Assembly (NCBI RefSeq): GCF_900104895.1
Contig: NZ_LT629742.1
Location: 3,038,001-3,102,000 of the forward strand
Length of the DNA: 64,000 bases
From: Microterricola viridarii
GTDB lineage: Bacteria > Actinomycetota > Actinomycetes > Actinomycetales > Microbacteriaceae
Reading direction: 5' to 3'
Of the stretch, positions 12,198 through 52,857 are shown one piece after another (within the stretch, counting starts at the first letter, position 1; the number at the start of each line of letters is the position of its first letter). Below the pieces are notes generated by a model that did not search any database, was not told the origin of the DNA, and saw only the letters and a program-made list of their open reading frames with translations. The translations under genes and the position numbers were made by a program.

Positions 12198-12353
12198 GTT
12201 GGCTTCGGTCGCTGGCGCTCCCTCGAGCCAACGGGAGTACTCGTCGGCTCGAGGGCGCCGCGCCGCGACGAAGGAGCAGCGCAGCGCCCGAAGCCGCGGA
12301 GCCAACGAGACCAGCGAGTTGGCTTCGGTCGCAAGCTCCCTCGAGCCAACGGG
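12198..12353. repeat. Dispersed repeat cluster, modules B-C-B
   Basis: B (12198-12235), C (12251-12294, core GCGACGAAGGAGCAGCGCAG) and a shorter B (12318-12353) fill the gap between the convergent YcaQ-like and FAD-oxidoreductase genes. The short B has TCGCAAGCTCC where the long B has TCGCTGGCGCTCC; both variants recur in the array at 51-52 kb. Module arms GTTGGCT and AGCCAAC can pair. Confidence 0.85.
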
Positions 12354-25354: not shown

Positions 25355-25360
25355 CCCCGG

Positions 25361-25453
<93 letters not shown>

Positions 25454-25474
25454 CAAAACCGACCACGGTGCGGG

Positions 25475-25799
25475 GTCTCGATACGCTCGTTCCTCGCTAC
25501 TCGACCAACGGAAGCCGGCAACCTCCGTTGGCTCGAGGAAGCGCCAGCAACCGAAGCCACCCCCGCCTCCGCGCCACTTCCCGCCATCTCCGCCGCCGCG
25601 GCGGGACGCAGAGCGCAGAAAGTGGCGCGGAGCGCGCCCTCCCCGCTGGTCGAGTAGGCCCGCCAGGGCCGTATCGAGACCCGGCATCCGGCCGGAAACC
25701 AAGCCCCCCACGAGGTCTCGATACGCTCGTTCCTCGCTACTCGACCAACGGAAGCGGGCAATTCCCCGCTGGCTGGAGGGAGCACCAGCGACCGAAGCC
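25475..25799. repeat. Dispersed repeat cluster on the 3' side of the DUF222/HNH gene
   Basis: Module A copies at 25475-25511 and 25715-25751 (GTCTCGATACGCTCGTTCC start, CGACCAACGG end), inverted B-type copies at 25525-25558 and 25766-25799, a 13-bp inverted repeat CTCCGCGCCACTT / AAGTGGCGCGGAG (25567-25579 with 25621-25633) and an inverted A variant at 25647-25681. With the 7-bp array it fills the 495-bp gap between the convergent DrrB-like and HNH genes; no gene is seen in it. Confidence 0.88.
25647..25681 (-). repeat. Hairpin variant of module A
   Basis: Inverted relative to the neighbouring A copies: same ends (CTGGTCGAGTA ... GTATCGAGAC) but the middle is replaced by GGCCC-GCCA-GGGCC, which gives a perfect short stem. 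Shows that the ends of A are kept while the centre varies. Confidence 0.75.
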
Positions 25800-25849: not shown

Positions 25850-27268
25850 CTACTCGACCAGCACCGGCTGGCGCTCGCGCTGCTGTTCGAGCAGGTCGGC
25901 GAGCTGGGTGCGGGACTTTGTCGATCTTCGCCAGGGCGTCTCGACCTCGCTGCGGCCGTTCCGCAGCCAGGGCGGGGGTTTCACGTCCGGGACGCCGTCG
26001 ATCATCAGGATCCGCCAGCCGCTCGTCTCGATGGTGCGGTGGTGGTACCAGCAGAGGAGGACTCCGTTGCAGGTCTCGGTTTCGCCGCCGTCGCGATAGG
26101 CGATGACGTGGTGGATCTCGGACCAGGCGGCCGGGATGGAGCAGCCGGGGATGATGCAGCCGCCGTCGCGCAGGCTGATGGCCCGGCGCTGGACGGCGTT
26201 GAACACCCGATCGGTCGTGCTCAGGCTGACCAGGCGCCCGTCGTCGCCGATCAATGCATGCTGGAGGCCGCCCGCGCAGGCGAACTGCTCGACGGCGCGC
26301 AGGGACAGCGGTGCCTCGCAGCCCTCGATGAACCCGGACCCGTTGTGGGCGGCGAGGTCGGCCTGCCGCACCGAGACCAGCACCGTCGGGGCGGCCCCGC
26401 CCAGGGTTGGGGCGGCGGCGCTGCGGGCGGCGCCGTCGATCAGGCTCGCGAACACATCGTGCCGGGCCTGCGCGGTCGCCCGCGGGTCCTTCGGCTGGTC
26501 CGGGTCGGCGTCAGCGAAGGTGGGCTTCGAGCGCGGGCTGAGGTACGCGTTCAGCAGGGTCTCGAACTTCGCGTCGATCTCCGGCAACAGCGCCATCCTG
26601 CGGTGGACCAGGCCGCCCCGGGTGAGGCCGCCGCTGATGCCGCGGGCGGCCATCGCCCGCTCCTCAATCGGTTCGGTGCCGTCCTCATCGCGCACGCTCT
26701 CCCAGACCCGGGCCTGCCCGCGCACCTCGTCCGCCGCGAACGGCAGCGCGGACTCGATCGTGGGGCCGGTCGCCGCGGCCACGAGGGCGGTCTCGGCGTG
26801 TTCGACGTTGAGGTCGCCGACCCGGCCGCGGATCGGGTCGAGAGTGTCGATGATCGCCAGAGCGCTGTCGTAGCCGAGCGAACCGGCACGGAGGGCGTCG
26901 GCAACCTGCTCGAAGCGGGCCGGCATCGTGTCCCCGGTGAGCGCGGTGCGGGGCCGGACGGCCGCCCCGAGCCGCATCCGCTGCGTGAGGGTGCGCTCGG
27001 ACGCCAGCGTCACCCGGGCGAGGAGTTCGACCCCGTTCCGGCAGCCCTTCCTGGCCGAGAGGCGTTCCTCGCCGAGCTCGCGGCGGGAGCGGAACGCGAC
27101 CTCCCCAGCGGCCCGGATGCGGAGAGCGTCGGCGAGCCGGCCGACGGCCTCGGCCGTCGCAGTGAGCTCGAGCAGGGCGTCATCGCGCAGCATCCGCTCA
27201 TCGGATCCGGCGAGGGCGGCGGCGAGGAGGGACTGTGCCTCTGCCAGCTGCCCCGTCGCGATTCCCAT
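25850..27268 (-). CDS. DUF222 / HNH endonuclease domain protein
   Basis: 472 aa. The N-terminal two-thirds are the helical DUF222 region (LLELTATAEAVGRLADALRIRAA, DALRAGSLGYDSALAIIDTL, GGLVHRRMALLPEIDAKFETLL). The C-terminal HNH domain reads RDGGCIIPGCS, then SEIHHVIAYRDGGETETCNG and LLCWYHHRTIE, with all metal and catalytic His/Asn positions intact, so it looks active. The family is greatly expanded in actinobacteria and its role is not established. Flanked on both sides by module A repeats. Confidence 0.9.
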   Translation of the reverse strand: MGIATGQLAEAQSLLAAALAGSDERMLRDDALLELTATAEAVGRLADALRIRAAGEVAFRSRRELGEERLSARKGCRNGVELLARVTLASERTLTQRMRLGAAVRPRTALTGDTMPARFEQVADALRAGSLGYDSALAIIDTLDPIRGRVGDLNVEHAETALVAAATGPTIESALPFAADEVRGQARVWESVRDEDGTEPIEERAMAARGISGGLTRGGLVHRRMALLPEIDAKFETLLNAYLSPRSKPTFADADPDQPKDPRATAQARHDVFASLIDGAARSAAAPTLGGAAPTVLVSVRQADLAAHNGSGFIEGCEAPLSLRAVEQFACAGGLQHALIGDDGRLVSLSTTDRVFNAVQRRAISLRDGGCIIPGCSIPAAWSEIHHVIAYRDGGETETCNGVLLCWYHHRTIETSGWRILMIDGVPDVKPPPWLRNGRSEVETPWRRSTKSRTQLADLLEQQRERQPVLVE

Positions 27269-27346
27269 GACACCATTTTACGGCGGAAAGCAAGGGCGTG
27301 ACGAAGAAAATCCCTGATGTGGATAACTTTCTGTTCGTGCGGCGGG

Positions 27347-27576
27347 GTCTCGATACGCTCGTTCCTCGCTACTCGACCAACGGGTTGCGGCAGGGCCTGT
27401 TGCCGGTTCCGACGGGCTCGACCAGAGGGCTTCGGTCGCTCGTTCCTCGCTCCCTCAGCCGACGTGGGGAGGGAAGCTCAGCCGACGTGGGGAGAGGGAC
27501 ACGCGAGTCGCACGCTGACTGGAGGCGGGGCGCGGGAGTCGCACGCTGGCTGGAGGGAGCGCCAGCGACCGAAGCC
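27347..27576. repeat. Dispersed repeat cluster upstream of the DUF222/HNH gene
   Basis: Module A at 27347-27383, degenerate B-like sequence around 27429-27458, an 18-bp direct repeat starting CTCAGCCGACGTGG (27454-27471 and 27477-27494), a 20-bp near-identical pair (27505-27524 and 27536-27555, GAGTCGCACGCTG start) and an inverted B end at 27552-27576. The whole gap 27269-27661 holds no gene. The two A copies at 25715 and 27347 have the same orientation and identical sequence, bracketing the HNH gene. Confidence 0.85.
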
Positions 27577-43179: not shown

Positions 43180-43308
43180 GTTGGCTTCGGTCGCTGGCGC
43201 TCCCTCGAGCCAACGGGAGAAGCCACGTCGGCTGGAAAGCGCCGCGCCCTCACGCCGGCTGGAGGGCGCCGCGCCGCGACGAAGGAGCAGCGCAGCGCCC
43301 GAAGCCCG
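43180..43308. repeat. Dispersed repeat cluster, modules B-C
   Basis: B at 43180-43217 (identical start and end to 12198-12235), then a C module whose 5' part is duplicated (CGTCGGCTGGAAAGCGCCGCG and CACGCCGGCTGGAGGGCGCC), continuing to about 43308. Fills the 256-bp gap between the convergent ABC permease and mazG genes. Confidence 0.85.
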
Positions 43309-43337
43309 GGAGTCGACGCGCAACCGCCGCGGTGCGG

Positions 43338-44787: not shown

Positions 44788-46005
44788 GTGGCTATTTTCC
44801 GTTCCGAACGCTACGCCGCGATGCTGCTCCTGGGCGCGGCCGTCCTCGGCCTTGTGCTCGCCAACAGCGCGATCGGCCCCGAGCTGCTCGCCCTGAAGAC
44901 CGCCCACCTCGAGCTGCCCTGGCTCGGCCTCGATCTCTCGCTCGGGCATTTCGTCAGCGACGGCCTGCTCGCCATCTTCTTCTTCATTGTCGCCGTCGAG
45001 CTCAAGCGCGAGCTGGCGATCGGCGAGCTGAACAGCCTGAGCAAGGCCGCCCTGCCGGCCATCGCGGCGCTGGGCGGCGTCGTCGTGCCCGCCGGCATCT
45101 TCCTGTTGATCACCGCCGGATCGGGCTGGGAGAACGGCTGGCCGGTGCCGACGGCGACCGACATCGCCTTCGCGCTCGGCCTGCTCGCCATCTTCGGGCG
45201 GGGCATCCCGACCCGGGTGCGGGTGTTCCTGATGGCCCTGGCCGTGCTCGACGACCTGGTCGCCATCCTCATCATCGCCTTCTTCTTCACCAGCGACGTG
45301 CAGCTGAGCTCGCTCGGCTTCGCCGCCGTCACCCTGCTGCTGTTCTCCGGCGTCAGCCGGCTGCTGCGGCCGCGCTCCGGCTACATCCTCAGCCGCAAGG
45401 CGCAGTGGCCGCTCATGCTGGCGATGTGGGTGCTCGCGATCCTCACCTGGTACTTCGTGTTCCAGTCCGGTGTGCACGCCACGATCGCCGGTGTGCTTCT
45501 CGGCCTTGTCATGGCGCGCCGCCCGGGCAGCCGCGCCGTGCACGGGCTCGAGCCGTGGTCGAACGGCCTGATCCTGCCGCTGTTCGCGTTCTCGGCGGCG
45601 CTCGTCGCCATCCCCACCGTGAGCCTCACCCAGCTGAGCCCGGCGTTCTGGGGCATCCTCATCGCCCTGCCGGTCGGGAAGCTCATCGGCATCACGCTGG
45701 CCGGCGGGCTCAGCGGGCTCGTCGCCCGCCGCTTCGGCGGAATCTCGCTGCGGATCGGCGACCTCCTCGTCGTCGCCTCGCTCGGCGGCGTCGGTTTCAC
45801 CGTCTCACTGCTGATGAATGAGCTTGCCTTCGCGAGCAGCCAGGAGGTCGTCGACGAGGGCACCATCGCCGTGCTGCTCGGCTCGGCCGTCGCCATGGTC
45901 TGCTCCGCGGCGTTCGTCAGCTGGCGTGCGGCCCAGTACCGGGCCGGCAAGCTGGCCGCGACGCCGACGGACGAGCCGGCGCCGGGCACGGCGCCGCTGT
46001 TCTAG
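44788..46005 (+). CDS. nhaA: Na+/H+ antiporter NhaA
   Basis: 405 aa. Hallmarks: LSLGHFVSDGLLAIFFFIVAVELKRE at the start, GWPVPTATDIAFALGLLAIFG, and ALAVLDDLVAILIIAFFF with the two transport aspartates (the adjacent Asp pair). C-terminal FGGISLRIGDLLVVASLGGVGFTVSLLM. Exports Na+ and helps pH homeostasis. The GTG start at 44788 is preceded by GGAGGGCCATCT. Confidence 0.96.
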   Translation: MAIFRSERYAAMLLLGAAVLGLVLANSAIGPELLALKTAHLELPWLGLDLSLGHFVSDGLLAIFFFIVAVELKRELAIGELNSLSKAALPAIAALGGVVVPAGIFLLITAGSGWENGWPVPTATDIAFALGLLAIFGRGIPTRVRVFLMALAVLDDLVAILIIAFFFTSDVQLSSLGFAAVTLLLFSGVSRLLRPRSGYILSRKAQWPLMLAMWVLAILTWYFVFQSGVHATIAGVLLGLVMARRPGSRAVHGLEPWSNGLILPLFAFSAALVAIPTVSLTQLSPAFWGILIALPVGKLIGITLAGGLSGLVARRFGGISLRIGDLLVVASLGGVGFTVSLLMNELAFASSQEVVDEGTIAVLLGSAVAMVCSAAFVSWRAAQYRAGKLAATPTDEPAPGTAPLF

Positions 46006-46015
46006 GCTGACGGGC

Positions 46016-46336
46016 ATGCACTCTCACGGCGGCGACGACTCCGCATCGACCGAGCCCGCGTCTGCGCACCTGACGGCGGAACTCCGCCCGCGGGAGAGAC
46101 CGCGCGGCATCCGGGGCGTCATTCACACCGTCGCCTACCTGGCCGGCACAGCCCTCAGCCTCGGCAGCCCGTCGGTGGCCGACATCATCGTGGTGCGCAC
46201 CGCAACGGGCAACGAGGTGCTGCGCAGCAGCGCCGGGGATCTCGTCGAGGCCGACATGCTGCTGCAGCGAATCCACGGCGACCTCGAGTCGATGACGGTG
46301 AGCGAGTTCCTCCGCGAGTGGGGTCACATCAGCTGA
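46016..46336 (+). CDS. Small conserved hypothetical protein
   Basis: 106 aa, no signal peptide. N-terminus His/Ser/Glu-rich and disordered; the rest reads IHTVAYLAGTALSLGSPSVADIIVVRTATGNEVLRSSAGDL and ends MTVSEFLREWGHIS. No recognised motif. Starts 10 nt after nhaA and is likely co-transcribed. Confidence 0.65.
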   Translation: MHSHGGDDSASTEPASAHLTAELRPRERPRGIRGVIHTVAYLAGTALSLGSPSVADIIVVRTATGNEVLRSSAGDLVEADMLLQRIHGDLESMTVSEFLREWGHIS

Positions 46337-46359
46337 GCGGCCGGGGTGGCCCCGGCCGC
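46337..46359. terminator. Bidirectional terminator between nhaA unit and mfd
   Basis: Perfect 10-bp stem GCGGCCGGGG / CCCCGGCCGC with TGG loop, directly after the stop at 46336 and 21 nt before the mfd stop. Confidence 0.7.
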
Positions 46360-46379
46360 CGCGCCGGCCACTCCGCCCG

Positions 46380-49300
46380 CTATTCGGCCTGCTTCCCCGG
46401 AGCCTTCTCCTGCACCTTCTCCTGCACGACGACGGGCGGCGGGAAGATGGCGGTGAGCAGCTGGCTCACCCACTCCAGCAGCGCGGCATCCGGGTTCTCG
46501 TTGTCGGAGAGGTCCGGCAGCGGCACCGAGAGCACGCCCTGCTGCGCGAAGTAGCGCGAGCCCAGGTACATGCGCTGCAGGCGCACCTGGATCGAGTCCG
46601 GCAGCGTGGCCTGCGCGATGCGCAGCTTGTCGCCCATCGCGACGACCTCGCTGAGCCCGGCCCGCTGGGCCTGCCGGCGCAGCTTCGACACCTCGATGAG
46701 CGTCTGCACGGGTGCCGGCGGCTCGCCGTAGCGGTCGACGAGCTCCTCCAACACGAGGCCGATGGTCTCGTCCTTGGCGGTGATCGAGCTGGCCGTGGCC
46801 AGCTTCTGGTAGGCCTCGAGGCGCAGTCGCTCGCTGTCGACGTACTCCTCCGGGATGTGCGCGTCGACCGGCAGCTCGAGCCGCAGCTCGGTCTGCCCCT
46901 CTGCGACGTCGCCGCGGAACGTCGACACCGCCTCGCCGATCATCCGCAGGTAGAGGTCGAAGCCGACGCCAGCGATGTGCCCGGCCTGCTCGCCGCCGAG
47001 CAGGTTGCCGGCGCCGCGGATCTCGAGGTCCTTCAGCGCCACCTGCATGCCGCTGCCGAGCTCGTTGTTCGCGGCGATCGTCGCCAGCCGGTCGTGCGCG
47101 GTCTCGCTGAGCGGGGTGTTCTCGTCATAGAGGAAGTAGGCATAGGCGCGCTCGCGGCCACGCCCGACGCGGCCGCGCAGCTGGTGCAGCTGGCTGAGGC
47201 CGTACTTGTCGGCGCGGTCGATGATGATGGTGTTCGCGTTGGCGATGTCGAGGCCGGTCTCGATGATCGTCGTCGAGACGAGCACGTCGAACTTGCGCTC
47301 CCAGAAGTCGGAGACGACCTGTTCGAGCACCGCCTCGGAGAGCTTGCCGTGGGCGACGGCGATGCGTGCCTCCGGCACCAGCTCGGCCAAATGGGCGGCC
47401 ACCTTGTTGATGCTGGACACCCGGTTGTGCACGAAGAAGACCTGGCCCTCGCGCAGCAGCTCGCGCTTGATCGCGGCTGCAACCTGCTTGTCCGAGTACG
47501 GCCCGACAAAGGTGAGGATCGGATGCCGGTCCTCCGGCGGCGTGGCCAGCGTCGACATCTCACGGATGCCGGTGACAGCCATCTCGAGGGTGCGCGGAAT
47601 CGGCGTCGCACTCATCGCGAGGATGTCGACGTTGGTCTTCATCTTCTTCAGCGAGTCCTTGTGCTCGACGCCGAAGCGCTGCTCCTCGTCGATGATGACG
47701 AGGCCGAGGTCCTTGAAGACGATCGAGTTGGAGAACAGCCGGTGGGTGCCGATGACGACGTCGACGGTCCCGTCCAGCAGGCCGGAGATCACCTCGGCCG
47801 ACTCCTTCTCGGTCTGGAACCGGCTGAGCGCGCGCAGGTGCACCGGGAAGCCGGCGAAGCGCTCCTGGAACGTCTCGAAGTGCTGCTTCACGAGCAGCGT
47901 GGTCGGCACCAGCATTGCGACCTGCTTGCCGTCCTGCACCGCCTTGAAAGCCGCCCGCACGGCGACCTCGGTCTTGCCGAAGCCGACGTCGCCGGAGAGC
48001 AGCCGGTCCATCGGGATCGGCCGTTCCATGTCGGCCTTGACCTCGTCGATGGTCTGCAGCTGGTCGGGCGTCTCGGCGTAGGGGAACGCCTCCTCCAGCT
48101 CGCGCTGCCAGGGCGTGTCCGGCCCGAAGGCGTGGCCCTTGGCCGCCATCCGCGCGGAGTAGAGCTTGACCAGCTCGACGGCGATGTCGCGCACCGCCTT
48201 GCGCGCCTTGCTCTTGGCGTTGGCCCAGTCGCTGCCGCCCATCTTGCTGAGCGCGGGCGCCTCGCCGCCAACGTAGCGGGAGAGCTGGTCGAGCTGGTCG
48301 GTGGGCACGTAGACCCGGTCGCCCGGTTGGCCGCGCTTCGACGGCGCGAACTCCAGCACCAGGTAGTCGCGCACGATCGTCGGCGCCGCGGCGATGCCGG
48401 CCGTGCGGGAGGGCCCCTTGGGCCGGCTGCCTGCGGCGACGGTGCGCTGGGTCATCTCGATGAAACGGCCGATGCCGTGGGTCTGGTGCACCACGTGGTC
48501 GCCGGGCTCCAGCTGCAGCGGGTCGACCACGTTCTTGCGGCGGCTGGCGAGCTTCTTGACCTGGCGCGAGTCGTAGCCGACGGCGCGACCGTAGAACTCG
48601 CTCTCGCTGATCAGGGCGAGCTTGGCATCCGACAGCTCGAAGCCGTGTGCGGCCTCGGCCTGCACCAGATAGGCGACGCCGGGCTCGGGCTCGGCCGGGA
48701 ACGAGTCGACGATCTGGGCGGCGAGCCCGCGCTCGGCGAGCACGTCGTTGGCGCGCTCGACAAGGCCGCGACCGCCGGCGACGATGGCCAGGCTCCAGCC
48801 GTCGGCCAGCCGGGTGGCGACGTGCTCGATGGCGCCGCCGACATTGCCCTGGAAGCTCGGAACGGCCTGGCTCTGCACCCGCACCGTGGTGCCAACCTCG
48901 AGGCCGGCCACGAGCTCGGCGATGCTCTCGTCCGTCAGCTCCGCCAGGGCGTCGCCAGAGTCAAACACGGAGAAGGTCCACCACGGGTGGTCCGGCGTCT
49001 TGTGCCCCGGCGCCCCGAGGCGCACCGCATCCCGCACGGCGTTGAGGGTGAGGAAGTCGCCGGATGCCAGGTCGATCGGGGTCTCGGCACCGAAGGTCGC
49101 CGCGCTCCAGGCCGCCGAGAGGAACTCCCGGTTCGTCTCGGCCAGGCTGACGGCGCGGCTGGCGACCCGCTCGGGCGAGAGCACGGCGACGGCGGCGCCG
49201 TCCGGCAGGTAGTCCGTCATCGGGACGAGCTTGTCGACGAGGGCGGGCGCGAGACTTTCCATCCCTTCGACCGGGATTCCCTCGGCGATCTTGGCGAGCA

Positions 49301-50259: not shown

Positions 50260-50970
50260 CTAGGCGGCGCGCTCGCCTGCGCGTGCCCTGGGCTGGCGAG
50301 GCTTGGGCTGGCGCGCGATCGCCTGCGCGAAGAGTGGCCAGAGCAGCAGTGCGACGGCGGCGCCGAGCGCGATGCCGGCGAACGTGTCGCTCAGCCAGTG
50401 CGCCGAGAGGTAGGTGCGGTTCAGCACGGTGACGATCACCAGGACGAGAGCGGTGATCCAGGCCCAGCGCCGGTTGATCAGGAGGCAGAGCACGACGACG
50501 AACAGGGTGAACCCGGTGAGGTGCCCGGAGGGGAAGGAGCCGAAGTCGACCGTGACGAGCGGGTCGTTCGGTCGTTCCCGGCTGACGACGGCCTTGACCA
50601 CCTGGGCGAGCGTGGACGCCAGCATCGTGGCCACGAAGAAGTACAGCGCGGCCCACCAGCGGCGCAGCACGAGCAGCGCGACGAGCGGGATCAGGATCGT
50701 GAAGATGGATCCGATCGGCCCGCCGGTCGTGTGGTCGACGACGACGTTGAACGCGGTGAACGCGTCGTTGCGCGGCGCGAGGACGACGTCGTGCCACCAC
50801 TGGTCCATGGCGACGAACCAGGGAGAGTTCGCACTGGCCAGCACGCTGGCGAACAGCACGGCGAACACGGCCAGGCTGATGAGCCCCCAGGCGACCGCGA
50901 GGCGTGCGGGCAGCTGCGCGCGGCGCGGGGGCGCCTCGGCCAGGGGCGTGGTGTCGGACGAGATCGCCAT
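50260..50970 (-). CDS. PAP2 superfamily membrane phosphatase
   Basis: 236 aa with about six helices. Phosphatase motifs: KAVVSRERPND (KxxxxxxRP), SFPSGHLTG (PSGH) and NRTYLSAHWLSDTFAG (SRxxxxxHxxxD with Asn-Arg in place of Ser-Arg). Probably acts on lipid phosphates such as undecaprenyl diphosphate. The tandem repeat array lies just upstream of its start. Confidence 0.9.
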   Translation of the reverse strand: MAISSDTTPLAEAPPRRAQLPARLAVAWGLISLAVFAVLFASVLASANSPWFVAMDQWWHDVVLAPRNDAFTAFNVVVDHTTGGPIGSIFTILIPLVALLVLRRWWAALYFFVATMLASTLAQVVKAVVSRERPNDPLVTVDFGSFPSGHLTGFTLFVVVLCLLINRRWAWITALVLVIVTVLNRTYLSAHWLSDTFAGIALGAAVALLLWPLFAQAIARQPKPRQPRARAGERAA

Positions 50971-51150
50971 TGATGCTCCTTCTCGGTGCGCCGCTCAACA
51001 CCGAGCGGCATTCGGTTTCTAGAGACTATAGCGTCGCGGGCAGCTCGGGGGTCAACACGGGCGCGGGGCGGCGTCTCCCCCACCGGAGGGCGGGCATGCC
51101 AGGACCGTGTCGAGACCACACCTCCCGCGGGCAATCGCGCCGCGTGCGGG
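50971..51150. other. Upstream region of PAP2 gene, no gene seen
   Basis: Together with the array this makes a 1290-bp non-coding stretch. The part next to PAP2 contains the start-site region (GAAGGAGCATCA before the ATG on the minus strand) and GAGACTATAGCGTCG at about 51021-51035, which may hold a -10 element. Confidence 0.4.
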
Positions 51151-52258
51151 GTCTCGATACGCTCGTCCCTCGCTCCTCGACCAGCGGGAGATTCACGCCG
51201 GCTGGAGGGGGCCGCGCCGCGACGACGGAGCAGCGCAGCGCCCGAAGCCCCGGAGCCAACGGGAAACCGTTTCGGGTGCGGGTCTCGATACGCTCGTCCC
51301 TCGCTACTCGACCAACGGTGTCCGCGGCGTTGGCTTCGGTCGCAAGCTCCCTCGAGCCAACGGGAGATTCACGCCGGCTGGAGGGGGCCGCGCCGCGACG
51401 AAGGAGCAGCGCAGCACCCGAAGCCCCGGAGCCAACGGGAAACCCAGCCGCGTGCGGGGTCTCGATACGCTCGTCCCTCGCTACTCGACCAACGGTGTTG
51501 GCGGCGTTGGCTTCGGTCGCAAGCTCCCTCAAGCCAACGGGAGATTCACGCCGGCTGGAGGGGGCCGCGCCGCGACGAAGGAGCAGCGCAGCACCCGAAG
51601 CCCCGGAGCCAACGGGAAACCCAGCCGCGTGCGAGGTCTCGATACGCTCGTTCCTCGCTACTCGACCAGCGGTGTCTGCGGCGTTGGCTTCGGTCGCAAG
51701 CTGCCTCGAGCCAACGGGAGACTCACGCCGGCTGGAGGGGGCCGCGCCGCGACGAAGGAGCAGCGCAGCACCCGAAGCCCCGGAGCCAACGGGAAACCGC
51801 ACCGCGTGCGAGGTCTCGATACGCTCGTTCCTCGCTACTCGACCAACGGCGTCGGCAGGGTTGGCTTCGGTCGCTGGCGCTCCCTCGAGCCAACGGGAGA
51901 TTCACGCCGGCTGGAGGGCGCCGCGCCGCGACGAAGGAGCAGCGCAGCGCCCGAAGCCCCGGAGCCAACGGGAAACCGCGCCACGTGCGGGGTCTCGATA
52001 CGCTCGTTCCTCGCTACTCGACCAACGGCGTCGGCAGGGTTGGCTTCGGTCGCTGGCGCTCCCTCGAGCCAACGGGAGATTCACGCCGGCTGGAGGGCGC
52101 CGCGCCGCGACGAAGGAGCAGCGCAGCGCCCGAAGCCCCGGAGCCAGCGAGAAACCCAGCCACGTGCGGGGTCTCGATACGCTCGTTCCTCGCTACTCGA
52201 CCAACGGTGTCGGCGGCGTTGGCTTCGGTCGCAAGCCCCTCGAGCCAACGGGCAACGG
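51151..52258 (+). repeat. Tandem array of ~177-bp composite repeats (modules A-B-C)
   Basis: Seven unit starts (GTCTCGATACGCTCG) at 51151, 51282, 51459, 51636, 51813, 51992 and 52171: periods 131, 177, 177, 177, 179, 179. Structure AC, then ABC five times, then AB. A is about 37 nt, B 36-38 nt, C about 70 nt with core GCGACGAAGGAGCAGCGCAG. Complete modules end in CCAACGG or a near variant. Neighbouring units differ at few positions; the 177/179 change reflects TCGCAAGCTCC versus TCGCTGGCGCTCC in B. It sits between pth (its stop adjoins the array) and the PAP2 gene. Confidence 0.95.
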
Positions 52259-52260
52259 CG

Positions 52261-52857
52261 CTACGCGGAGGGGGCGTGCACCTTCTGCTGGGCAGCGAGG
52301 AGCCCGTCGGTGATCACGAGCTCGACGGCATCCGCCGCATCGGAGAGCAGATTCGGCAGCACGGAGCGCTCGGTGGACGAGAAGCCCTGCAGCACGAAGT
52401 CGGCCGGGTCCTGCCGGCCGGGAGGGCGCCCGACGCCGACGCGCACGCGCACATACTCGGGCGAGTTGGCGGCCTTGGCGATGTCGCGCAGGCCGTTGTG
52501 GCCGCCGTGCCCGCCGCCGATCTTCAGCTTGATCGTGTCGAACGGGATGTCGAGCTCGTCGTGCACGACGATGAGGCGCTCCAGCGGCAGCGAGTAGAAC
52601 TTGAGCAGCGCGGCGACCGGGCCGCCCGAGGTGTTCATGTAGCTGTTCGACTTCGCCAGCACGAGCTTGGGCCCGCCGGGACGCAGGAATCCCTCGGCCA
52701 CCTGGGCGGGAGTCTTGTGTTTCTTAAAGGTGGCACCGATGCGCGAGGCGAGCTCGTCGACGACCATCTGGCCCACATTGTGGCGGTGGTTGGCGTAGCC
52801 GGGCCCGGGGTTGCCGAGCCCGACCACCAACCAAGTGTTGCCGGGCACAGAATTCAC
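52261..52857 (-). CDS. pth: Peptidyl-tRNA hydrolase
   Basis: 198 aa. Releases peptide from stalled peptidyl-tRNA. Seen: [19 protein letters not shown] with catalytic His26, [24 protein letters not shown] with catalytic Asp and [15 protein letters not shown]. Follows rplY by 41 nt on the same strand, the common ctc-pth pair. The stop lies 2 nt from the end of the repeat array, so the transcript enters the array. Confidence 0.96.

Follow-up and report, generated by a model that had tools for sequence, protein, structure and literature searches.

REPs rank with the most frequent repeats of bacterial genomes, and RAYT, the Y1 transposase that usually accompanies them, is the enzyme class with which they have been linked. 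In the BIME-2 elements of E. coli, composite palindromic units have been multiplied in tandem between genes, and in Neisseria the GIY-YIG single-strand nucleases called Ssn are paired with NTS repeats. For RAYT-type REPs, the available part of one study reports a correlation between copy number and whether the transposase gene is present (PMC2817692), and the portion available of a study of Pseudomonas fluorescens SBW25 describes composite tandem REP arrays (112 + 72 bp) that lie in opposite orientation on the two sides of the genome (PMC3116915). A 2013 survey states, in its available text, that the CGTC-tagged class of REPs has no dedicated transposase, and there leaves open what serves REP families without RAYT (PMC3733652); the word “Actinobacteria” is absent from its main text.

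Here we describe a family of short repeats in the soil actinobacterium Microterricola viridarii (G000) that is, close to certainly, REP-like with BIME-like arrays. The window, by which we mean the whole stretch of 64,000 nucleotides analysed, covers positions 3,038,001-3,102,000 of a 3.84-Mb genome assembled as a single contig. Directly after the stop codon of pth it carries an array (51150-52251) whose modules, read from the sequence, are arranged as one A C, five consecutive A B C and a closing A B. Given the composite arrays of SBW25, as far as these are described in the available text (PMC3116915), such an array is a known kind of object. The array and its flanking genes are laid out as follows:

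50260..50970, minus strand: flanking gene, putative PAP2 (name from the initial annotation)
51150..51187, plus strand: module A, unit 1 (3 mismatches)
51188..51262, plus strand: module C, unit 1 (unit without B)
51281..51318, plus strand: module A, unit 2
51329..51363, plus strand: module B, unit 2 (exact)
51364..51438, plus strand: module C, unit 2
51458..51495, plus strand: module A, unit 3
51506..51540, plus strand: module B, unit 3
51541..51615, plus strand: module C, unit 3
51635..51672, plus strand: module A, unit 4
51683..51717, plus strand: module B, unit 4
51718..51792, plus strand: module C, unit 4
51812..51849, plus strand: module A, unit 5 (exact)
51860..51896, plus strand: module B, unit 5, 37-nt variant (read from the sequence)
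51897..51971, plus strand: module C, unit 5
51991..52028, plus strand: module A, unit 6 (exact)
52039..52075, plus strand: module B, unit 6, 37-nt variant (read from the sequence)
52076..52150, plus strand: module C, unit 6
52170..52207, plus strand: module A, unit 7 (exact)
52218..52251, plus strand: module B, unit 7, one base short (unit without C)
52261..52857, minus strand: pth, flanking gene

Module A starts at 51150, 51281, 51458, 51635, 51812, 51991 and 52170, giving periods of 131, 177, 177, 177, 179 and 179, and TRF calls a repeat of period 177 at 51175-52252 with 6.1 copies and 94% matches; the unit periods given in the initial annotation are reproduced by the A starts, and its module order by reading of the sequence. 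The sequence also bears out that the first unit lacks B and the last lacks C, that modules end in CCAACGG or a close variant, and that B begins with GTTGG. Module sizes, previously given as about 37, 37 and 70 nt, are corrected to 33 nt plus AACGG (38 nt) for A, 34-37 nt for B and 75 nt for C. CRISPR had been dismissed on the ground that there are no spacers: unique spacers are indeed absent from the array and no CRISPR family reaches the gathering score in the window (Rfam), but linkers of 10 nt separate A from B and of ∼19 nt separate C from the next A. A tRNA is the sole Rfam match in the window; of two matches below threshold in the array region, CcsR1 falls within the array and a CRISPR model beyond it. 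In line with the claim that the array is non-coding, a coding-potential gene call puts no gene in it, though long ORFs cross it because 177 is a multiple of three. Its units had been called nearly identical; pairwise identity is 90-98%, with units 5 and 6 at 97.8% and units 2 and 3 at 97.7%, which means that the array is not built of identical copies of a single unit. The highest similarities include those between close neighbours, a pattern that would be expected from stepwise tandem duplication.

The modules recur well beyond this locus, as had been proposed. At up to 3 mismatches the 3.84-Mb genome holds 89 places for A, 53 for B and 48 for the core of C, against 0 for the reversed patterns; the 89 copies of A carry 0, 1, 2 or 3 mismatches in 73, 10, 5 and 1 cases, and no further match appears until chance level at 11. 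With 33 nt, A is a high-copy palindrome within the 20-40 bp size range of REPs. A further hairpin, D, is absent from the pth array and occurs elsewhere in the window, where the dispersed elements and a gene lying among them are:

12234..12308, plus strand: C-like module
12318..12352, plus strand: single module B (exact)
25474..25511, plus strand: single module A (exact)
25648..25681, minus strand: D hairpin, inverted, 32 bp from the next A
25714..25751, plus strand: module A (exact)
25850..27268, minus strand: DUF222-HNH nuclease gene, between A modules
27346..27383, plus strand: module A, ∼77-78 bp before the DUF222-HNH gene start
43245..43319, plus strand: C-like module

Beside the A-D-A cluster, a 7-bp CCGGTCT tract is repeated 13.9 times (25357-25453).

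Five Microterricola genomes contain 89, 98, 15, 38 and 92 copies of A (range 15-98) and one further genome of the family contains 51, with any A found in 11 of the 149 genomes searched. Among the matches listed (at least 80 stretches), exact A comes from records labelled Microterricola, Leifsonia, Agreia, Cryobacterium and Flexivirga; of the named relatives in the data, Microterricola pindariensis (G004, NZ_MPZN records) is the closest. A and D share a common frame, GGTCTCGATAC...TACTCGACC, and differ in their middles, and this frame pattern is present in 25 of 394 genomes of the class, with a maximum of 299 in one genome; reversed frame controls gave 0, except for single matches in 3 genomes without the frame. 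At the loci examined, the outer 4-mers are complementary in 313/332 frames (GGTC/GACC 302, GATC/GATC 8, GGTT/AACC 3). The inner stems covary across genomes: over the 92 distinct inner forms among the frame matches listed, the mean terminal run of pairs is 3.97 against 1.88 for permuted halves (maximum of 1000 permutations 2.28), and 2.97 against 0.88 (maximum 1.26) without the first pair, which the pattern forces. Recurring apices include TCGTTCCTC, TCCTTCGTC and TCGCTGCGCTC. On the complementary strand A, B, C and D all start CCG(T/C)TGG, and the complementary strand of A and D reads GGTCGA-GTAG followed by a stem-loop, with GTAG inside the outer paired frame and the CGTC tag absent.

Taken alone, A forms a weak hairpin, interrupted by mismatches, and does not fold better than shuffled sequences, so that stability alone does not account for its conservation. 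Across 51 paired copies the 33-nt core shows 9 differences in 1683 positions against 502 in 4387 in the flanks, ∼20-fold less, a ratio inflated to some degree because the G004 loci were fetched by exact A match, which favours identical cores.

Within loci of M. viridarii, neighbouring frames in minus-then-plus orientation lie 31-32 bp apart in 39 of 44 cases, all 39 of which pair A with D. This inverted A-D pair with its set spacer is REPIN-like and is the commonest dispersed unit. Arrays of other make-up occur at other loci (five A at 60-bp steps; six A plus a C; alternating A and B), and unit numbers differ between sister species, which upholds the earlier view of an interspersed family able to form local arrays: at orthologous sites of G000 and G004 we counted five against three A, one against three B and spans of 1341 against 544 bp, and some sites agree. 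The pth spacer itself is 171 bp in G004, 89 bp in G001 and ∼1.2 kb in M. viridarii, and the four congeners (G001-G004) are free of modules for 1.5 kb around pth. Comparison by eye of two sites against G001, G002 and G004, and of ten sites against G004, yielded no clean single-module empty site with a definable insertion boundary or target duplication, because the spacers compared were either diverged or common to the genomes. A single gene pair (window 46005-46415) encloses hairpins, with forms such as GGTTTCGACAAGCTCAACC among them, in G001 (L202 3596-4066) and G002 (L205 9179-9368), and other sequence in G000 and G004. The term “undescribed” holds for the sequences, for which no bacterial-repeat paper matched in open full text, but not for the kind, as REPs, BIMEs and REPINs are well known.

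Placement of the repeats follows that of REPs. Among 55 repeat clusters in G000, at loci chosen for containing A, 34 are in convergent spacers, 17 in tandem spacers, 2 in divergent spacers and 2 inside called genes; relative to 143 background junctions (spacers of at least 60 bp), convergent spacers are favoured (34/55 against 28/143, p 3.5e-8) and divergent ones avoided (2/55 against 46/143, p 5e-6). The 38 clusters of G001 are divided into 28 convergent, 8 tandem, 0 divergent and 2 in called genes, and both species therefore show the location mainly between convergent and unidirectional ORFs by which REPs are recognised. Taking dnaA to mark the origin and assuming that the terminus lies opposite, we find a modest strand bias of A: it runs opposite to the replication fork in 35/50 clusters of G000 (p 0.0066), 26/39 of G001 (p 0.053) and 10/15 of G002 (counted by eye), so that the CCGTTGG strand tends towards the lagging-strand template. 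By spacer type in G000, the A clusters opposite to the fork number 13/15 in tandem spacers, 20/31 in convergent spacers, 0/2 in divergent spacers and 2/2 in called genes. The species share sites, and the genomes are accordingly not independent in these placement and strand counts. Clusters of A also thin towards the terminus, with 2/50 in the ter-most quarter of G000 (12.5 expected) and 3/39 in that of G001 (9.8 expected); for G000 the corresponding figures are 2/29 for B (7.2 expected) and 6/33 for C (8.2 expected). The region from 1.77 to 2.63 Mb around the presumed terminus of G000 contains no A or B at up to 3 mismatches, and four clusters of the C core.

The initial annotation had offered termination or RNA structure as a function, and as the main role this is not supported: the fold of the 177-nt unit is no more stable than those of its shuffles (z -0.7 and 0.06), a scan for a hairpin followed by a T-run found no terminator-like site inside the array, and A ignores the direction of transcription, lying on the gene strand in 7/15 tandem sites of G000. 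The exception is the complement of C, which alone folds well as RNA (z -3.1).

RAYT was considered as the partner and rejected. The Y1 transposase family PF01797 has no match in the M. viridarii genome and 5 matches among 149 relatives, none of them among the 11 genomes with A; it is found in 0 of a chosen set of 39 genomes, a set that includes 24 repeat-bearing ones from several families (19 of the 25 frame-bearing genomes, G001-G004 and G095). The Y1 transposase of E. coli was found as a control.

At 1.222 Mb, flanked by A modules, lies the gene (L046 3021-3323) for a 100-aa protein with a GIY-YIG domain (E 4.3e-19). A profile derived from this protein detects the gene in all five Microterricola genomes and in G377, G401, G260 and G208, the last from another family, and all nine small proteins match PF01541 (E 4.4e-14 to 4.3e-19). 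The GIY-YIG protein matches PDB 1zg2 (UPF0213) with E 1e-13, its AlphaFold model has a pLDDT of 79.9, and residues Y5, Y15, G17, R25, H29 and E62, putative catalytic positions among them, are invariant in the nine. We take Ssn-type enzymes to be defined by a small GIY-YIG protein, a gene near copies of a genome-wide repeat and site-specific cleavage of that repeat in ssDNA; the first two features are seen here, the second at loci chosen for repeats. A frame lies within 300 bp of 9/9 GIY-YIG genes compared with 425/1946 called genes (Fisher p 1.1e-6; p 4.9e-4 with lineages collapsed to 5); as the loci were mostly chosen for repeats and some overlap, the 9/9 takes in GIY-YIG genes near repeats, and the background of 1946 includes overlapping loci. 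Frames flank the gene on both sides in six of nine genomes and on one side only in G002 and G401, and G401 has three frames in its genome, two of them 163 and 296 bp from the gene. The two flanks share at least 23 nt in 8/9 cases compared with 18/2588 control windows. In G000, G001, G002 and G004, though not in G003, the final codons of the gene with its TAG stop form the hairpin head CCGYYGGTCGAGTAG. The apex of this gene-end hairpin resembles that of D in G000 and G004 and that of A in G001 and G002 (L046, L136, L280, L316), as if it had been swapped within a kept frame. By profile, no GIY-YIG gene was found at any frame of G499 (10/10), G076 (3/3), G317 (3/3) and G258 (1/1), nor at the sampled part of the frames of G105, G106, G025, G013, G445, G344, G173, G281, G491, G367, G483 and G095; in these 16 genomes either the repeats stand without a nearby gene or the profile missed it.

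The association was also followed beyond actinobacteria. Using tblastn, we found GIY-YIG relatives on 39 plasmid records, and the flanks share a repeat of at least 16 nt in 6 of the 13 distant relatives examined, compared with 16/2328 overlapping control windows from the same six records at a threshold of at least 15 nt set after the 6/13 result. The six are on plasmids of Sphingomonas parapaucimobilis, Novosphingobium, Methylobacterium, Sinorhizobium, Shinella and Planktothrix, and the repeats are hairpin-like in most (L270, L271, L272, L335, L338, L341); in the other 7/13, including B. subtilis yazA, no shared flanking repeat was found. The hairpins that precede the S. parapaucimobilis gene are arranged as an inverted pair with 31 nt between them, and a related 32-mer occurs at 36 places on the plasmid (E up to 1). 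The flanking palindromes of Novosphingobium and Shinella start with CGTC.

Considering these observations together, we read A, B, C and D as one family of REP-like extragenic palindromes, each with a CCG(T/C)TGG head on the complementary strand followed by a hairpin, and the pth array as a BIME-like tandem multiplication of the A-B-C block by recombination or slippage. Associated with the family is a small resident GIY-YIG nuclease of the Ssn/UPF0213 type, encoded amid the hairpins, and the modules are probably REP-like target sites of that enzyme. The close surround of the gene by repeats suggests that the enzyme recognises them; it would bind head and hairpin where the DNA is single-stranded, chiefly in the template of the lagging strand, and then nick. 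Such recognition and nicking would explain why a mismatched hairpin is conserved, why the strand bias follows replication and not transcription, why decayed copies of A are lacking and why arrays change by whole units. Whether the nuclease also spreads or multiplies the repeats is more doubtful, and we put this forward tentatively. Recognition, cutting and any such role in spreading are what we infer from the association of gene and repeats; among the functions suggested in the initial annotation, “targets for a nuclease” is nonetheless the best supported, given a nuclease gene embedded in the repeats.

Several other readings were weighed against this one. The modules might be binding sites or RNA or termination elements under selection at gene ends, with the GIY-YIG gene nearby by chance or carrying its own copies, which we regard as unlikely: selection would account for the strong constraint on A, for the thinning near the terminus and for how well the complement of C folds on its own as RNA (z -3.1), and a position between convergent genes would suit termination, but the strand of A does not track transcription (7/15), the unit folds like shuffled sequence, the array has no terminator-like site, and all nine GIY-YIG genes sit by a frame. 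Absence of PF01797 from the 24 repeat-bearing genomes of several families speaks against orphan REPs or REPINs that were once spread by a RAYT or another transposase, since lost or unrecognised, and A is undecayed where decay would be expected after loss of the enzyme; we hold this origin to be distinctly unlikely, even though it would accommodate the REPIN-like A-D pairs, the REP-like placement and a strand bias of the kind expected of single-strand mobility. Functionless tandem duplication, or an assembly error, is highly improbable. Slippage by itself can generate tandem repeats, which are common, yet the units carry their own differences and arrays of other make-up are found at many sites, in separately assembled species.

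Genes that recur beside the repeats were also sought. An all-against-all BLAST of 100 flanking proteins returned a handful of pairs at 29-49% identity and one at 92%, the latter formed by DUF222-HNH nucleases, which we take to be 13E12-like. Their gene occurs twice in the genome (window 25850-27268 and L049 3045-4463), each copy is preceded by an A ∼78 bp from its start, and inspection by eye suggests that the two share upstream hairpins over a few hundred bp; in G001 the stretch homologous to the window copy is too short to hold the gene. That these nucleases are the partner is improbable in our estimation. Their case draws on a frame within ∼105 bp in 6/7 homologous ORFs at the loci examined, on the duplication with A upstream of the copies, and on the sole frame of G258, 78 bp from such a gene; against this, four of the six ORFs represent one pair of paralogues present in each of two sister species, the A of the paralogue pair may have been duplicated along with the gene, one of the seven (L242) has no Pfam family at 1e-3, and the association was examined within actinobacteria.

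A wider proposition, which we offer as a possibility and tentatively, is that small GIY-YIG single-strand nucleases are the missing partner of RAYT-less REP families (those with the actinobacterial CCGTTGG frame and, judging by the distant examples, CGTC REPs), and would form a second, unrelated enzyme class maintaining, spreading and tandemly multiplying REPs by nicking hairpins on the lagging-strand template. Among the literature matches listed, we found no paper linking GIY-YIG with REPs. With a protein and its likely DNA targets now named, in a soil genus with 15-98 copies of A per genome, the question of a partner for RAYT-less REPs becomes directly testable. If confirmed, REPs and GIY-YIG nucleases would belong to a single system spanning phyla, which would bear on the instability of arrays, on rearrangement of the genome and perhaps on natural transformation.

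Each known system shares part of what is seen in M. viridarii. The Ssn/NTS pairing of Neisseria likewise joins a small GIY-YIG protein to a genome-wide family of short repeats, and the enzyme-repeat principle is for that reason probably not new; the repeats described here differ in sequence, form A-D pairs and long composite arrays, and belong to a soil actinobacterium, for which cutting is a proposal drawn from the association of gene and repeats. In E. coli BIME-2, intergenic palindromic units of composite make-up have likewise been multiplied locally in tandem, but their orientation alternates, and E. coli has a Y1 transposase whereas the M. viridarii family is without one. SBW25, in the available account (PMC3116915), has REPINs that are inverted REP pairs with a spacer, as here; its REPs go with RAYT genes, in contrast to a family lacking a Y1 transposase, whose modules share another head, CCGTTGG, and whose array unit consists of three modules in one orientation. 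The CGTC-tagged REPs, to the extent covered by the available text of the survey (PMC3733652), are also short palindromes, placed in several REP-rich genomes mainly between convergent and unidirectional ORFs; the present repeats differ from them in sequence, in a longer frame with outer and inner stem and in their actinobacterial hosts, while the CGTC tag itself is the one found on the palindromes flanking the GIY-YIG genes of Novosphingobium and Shinella.
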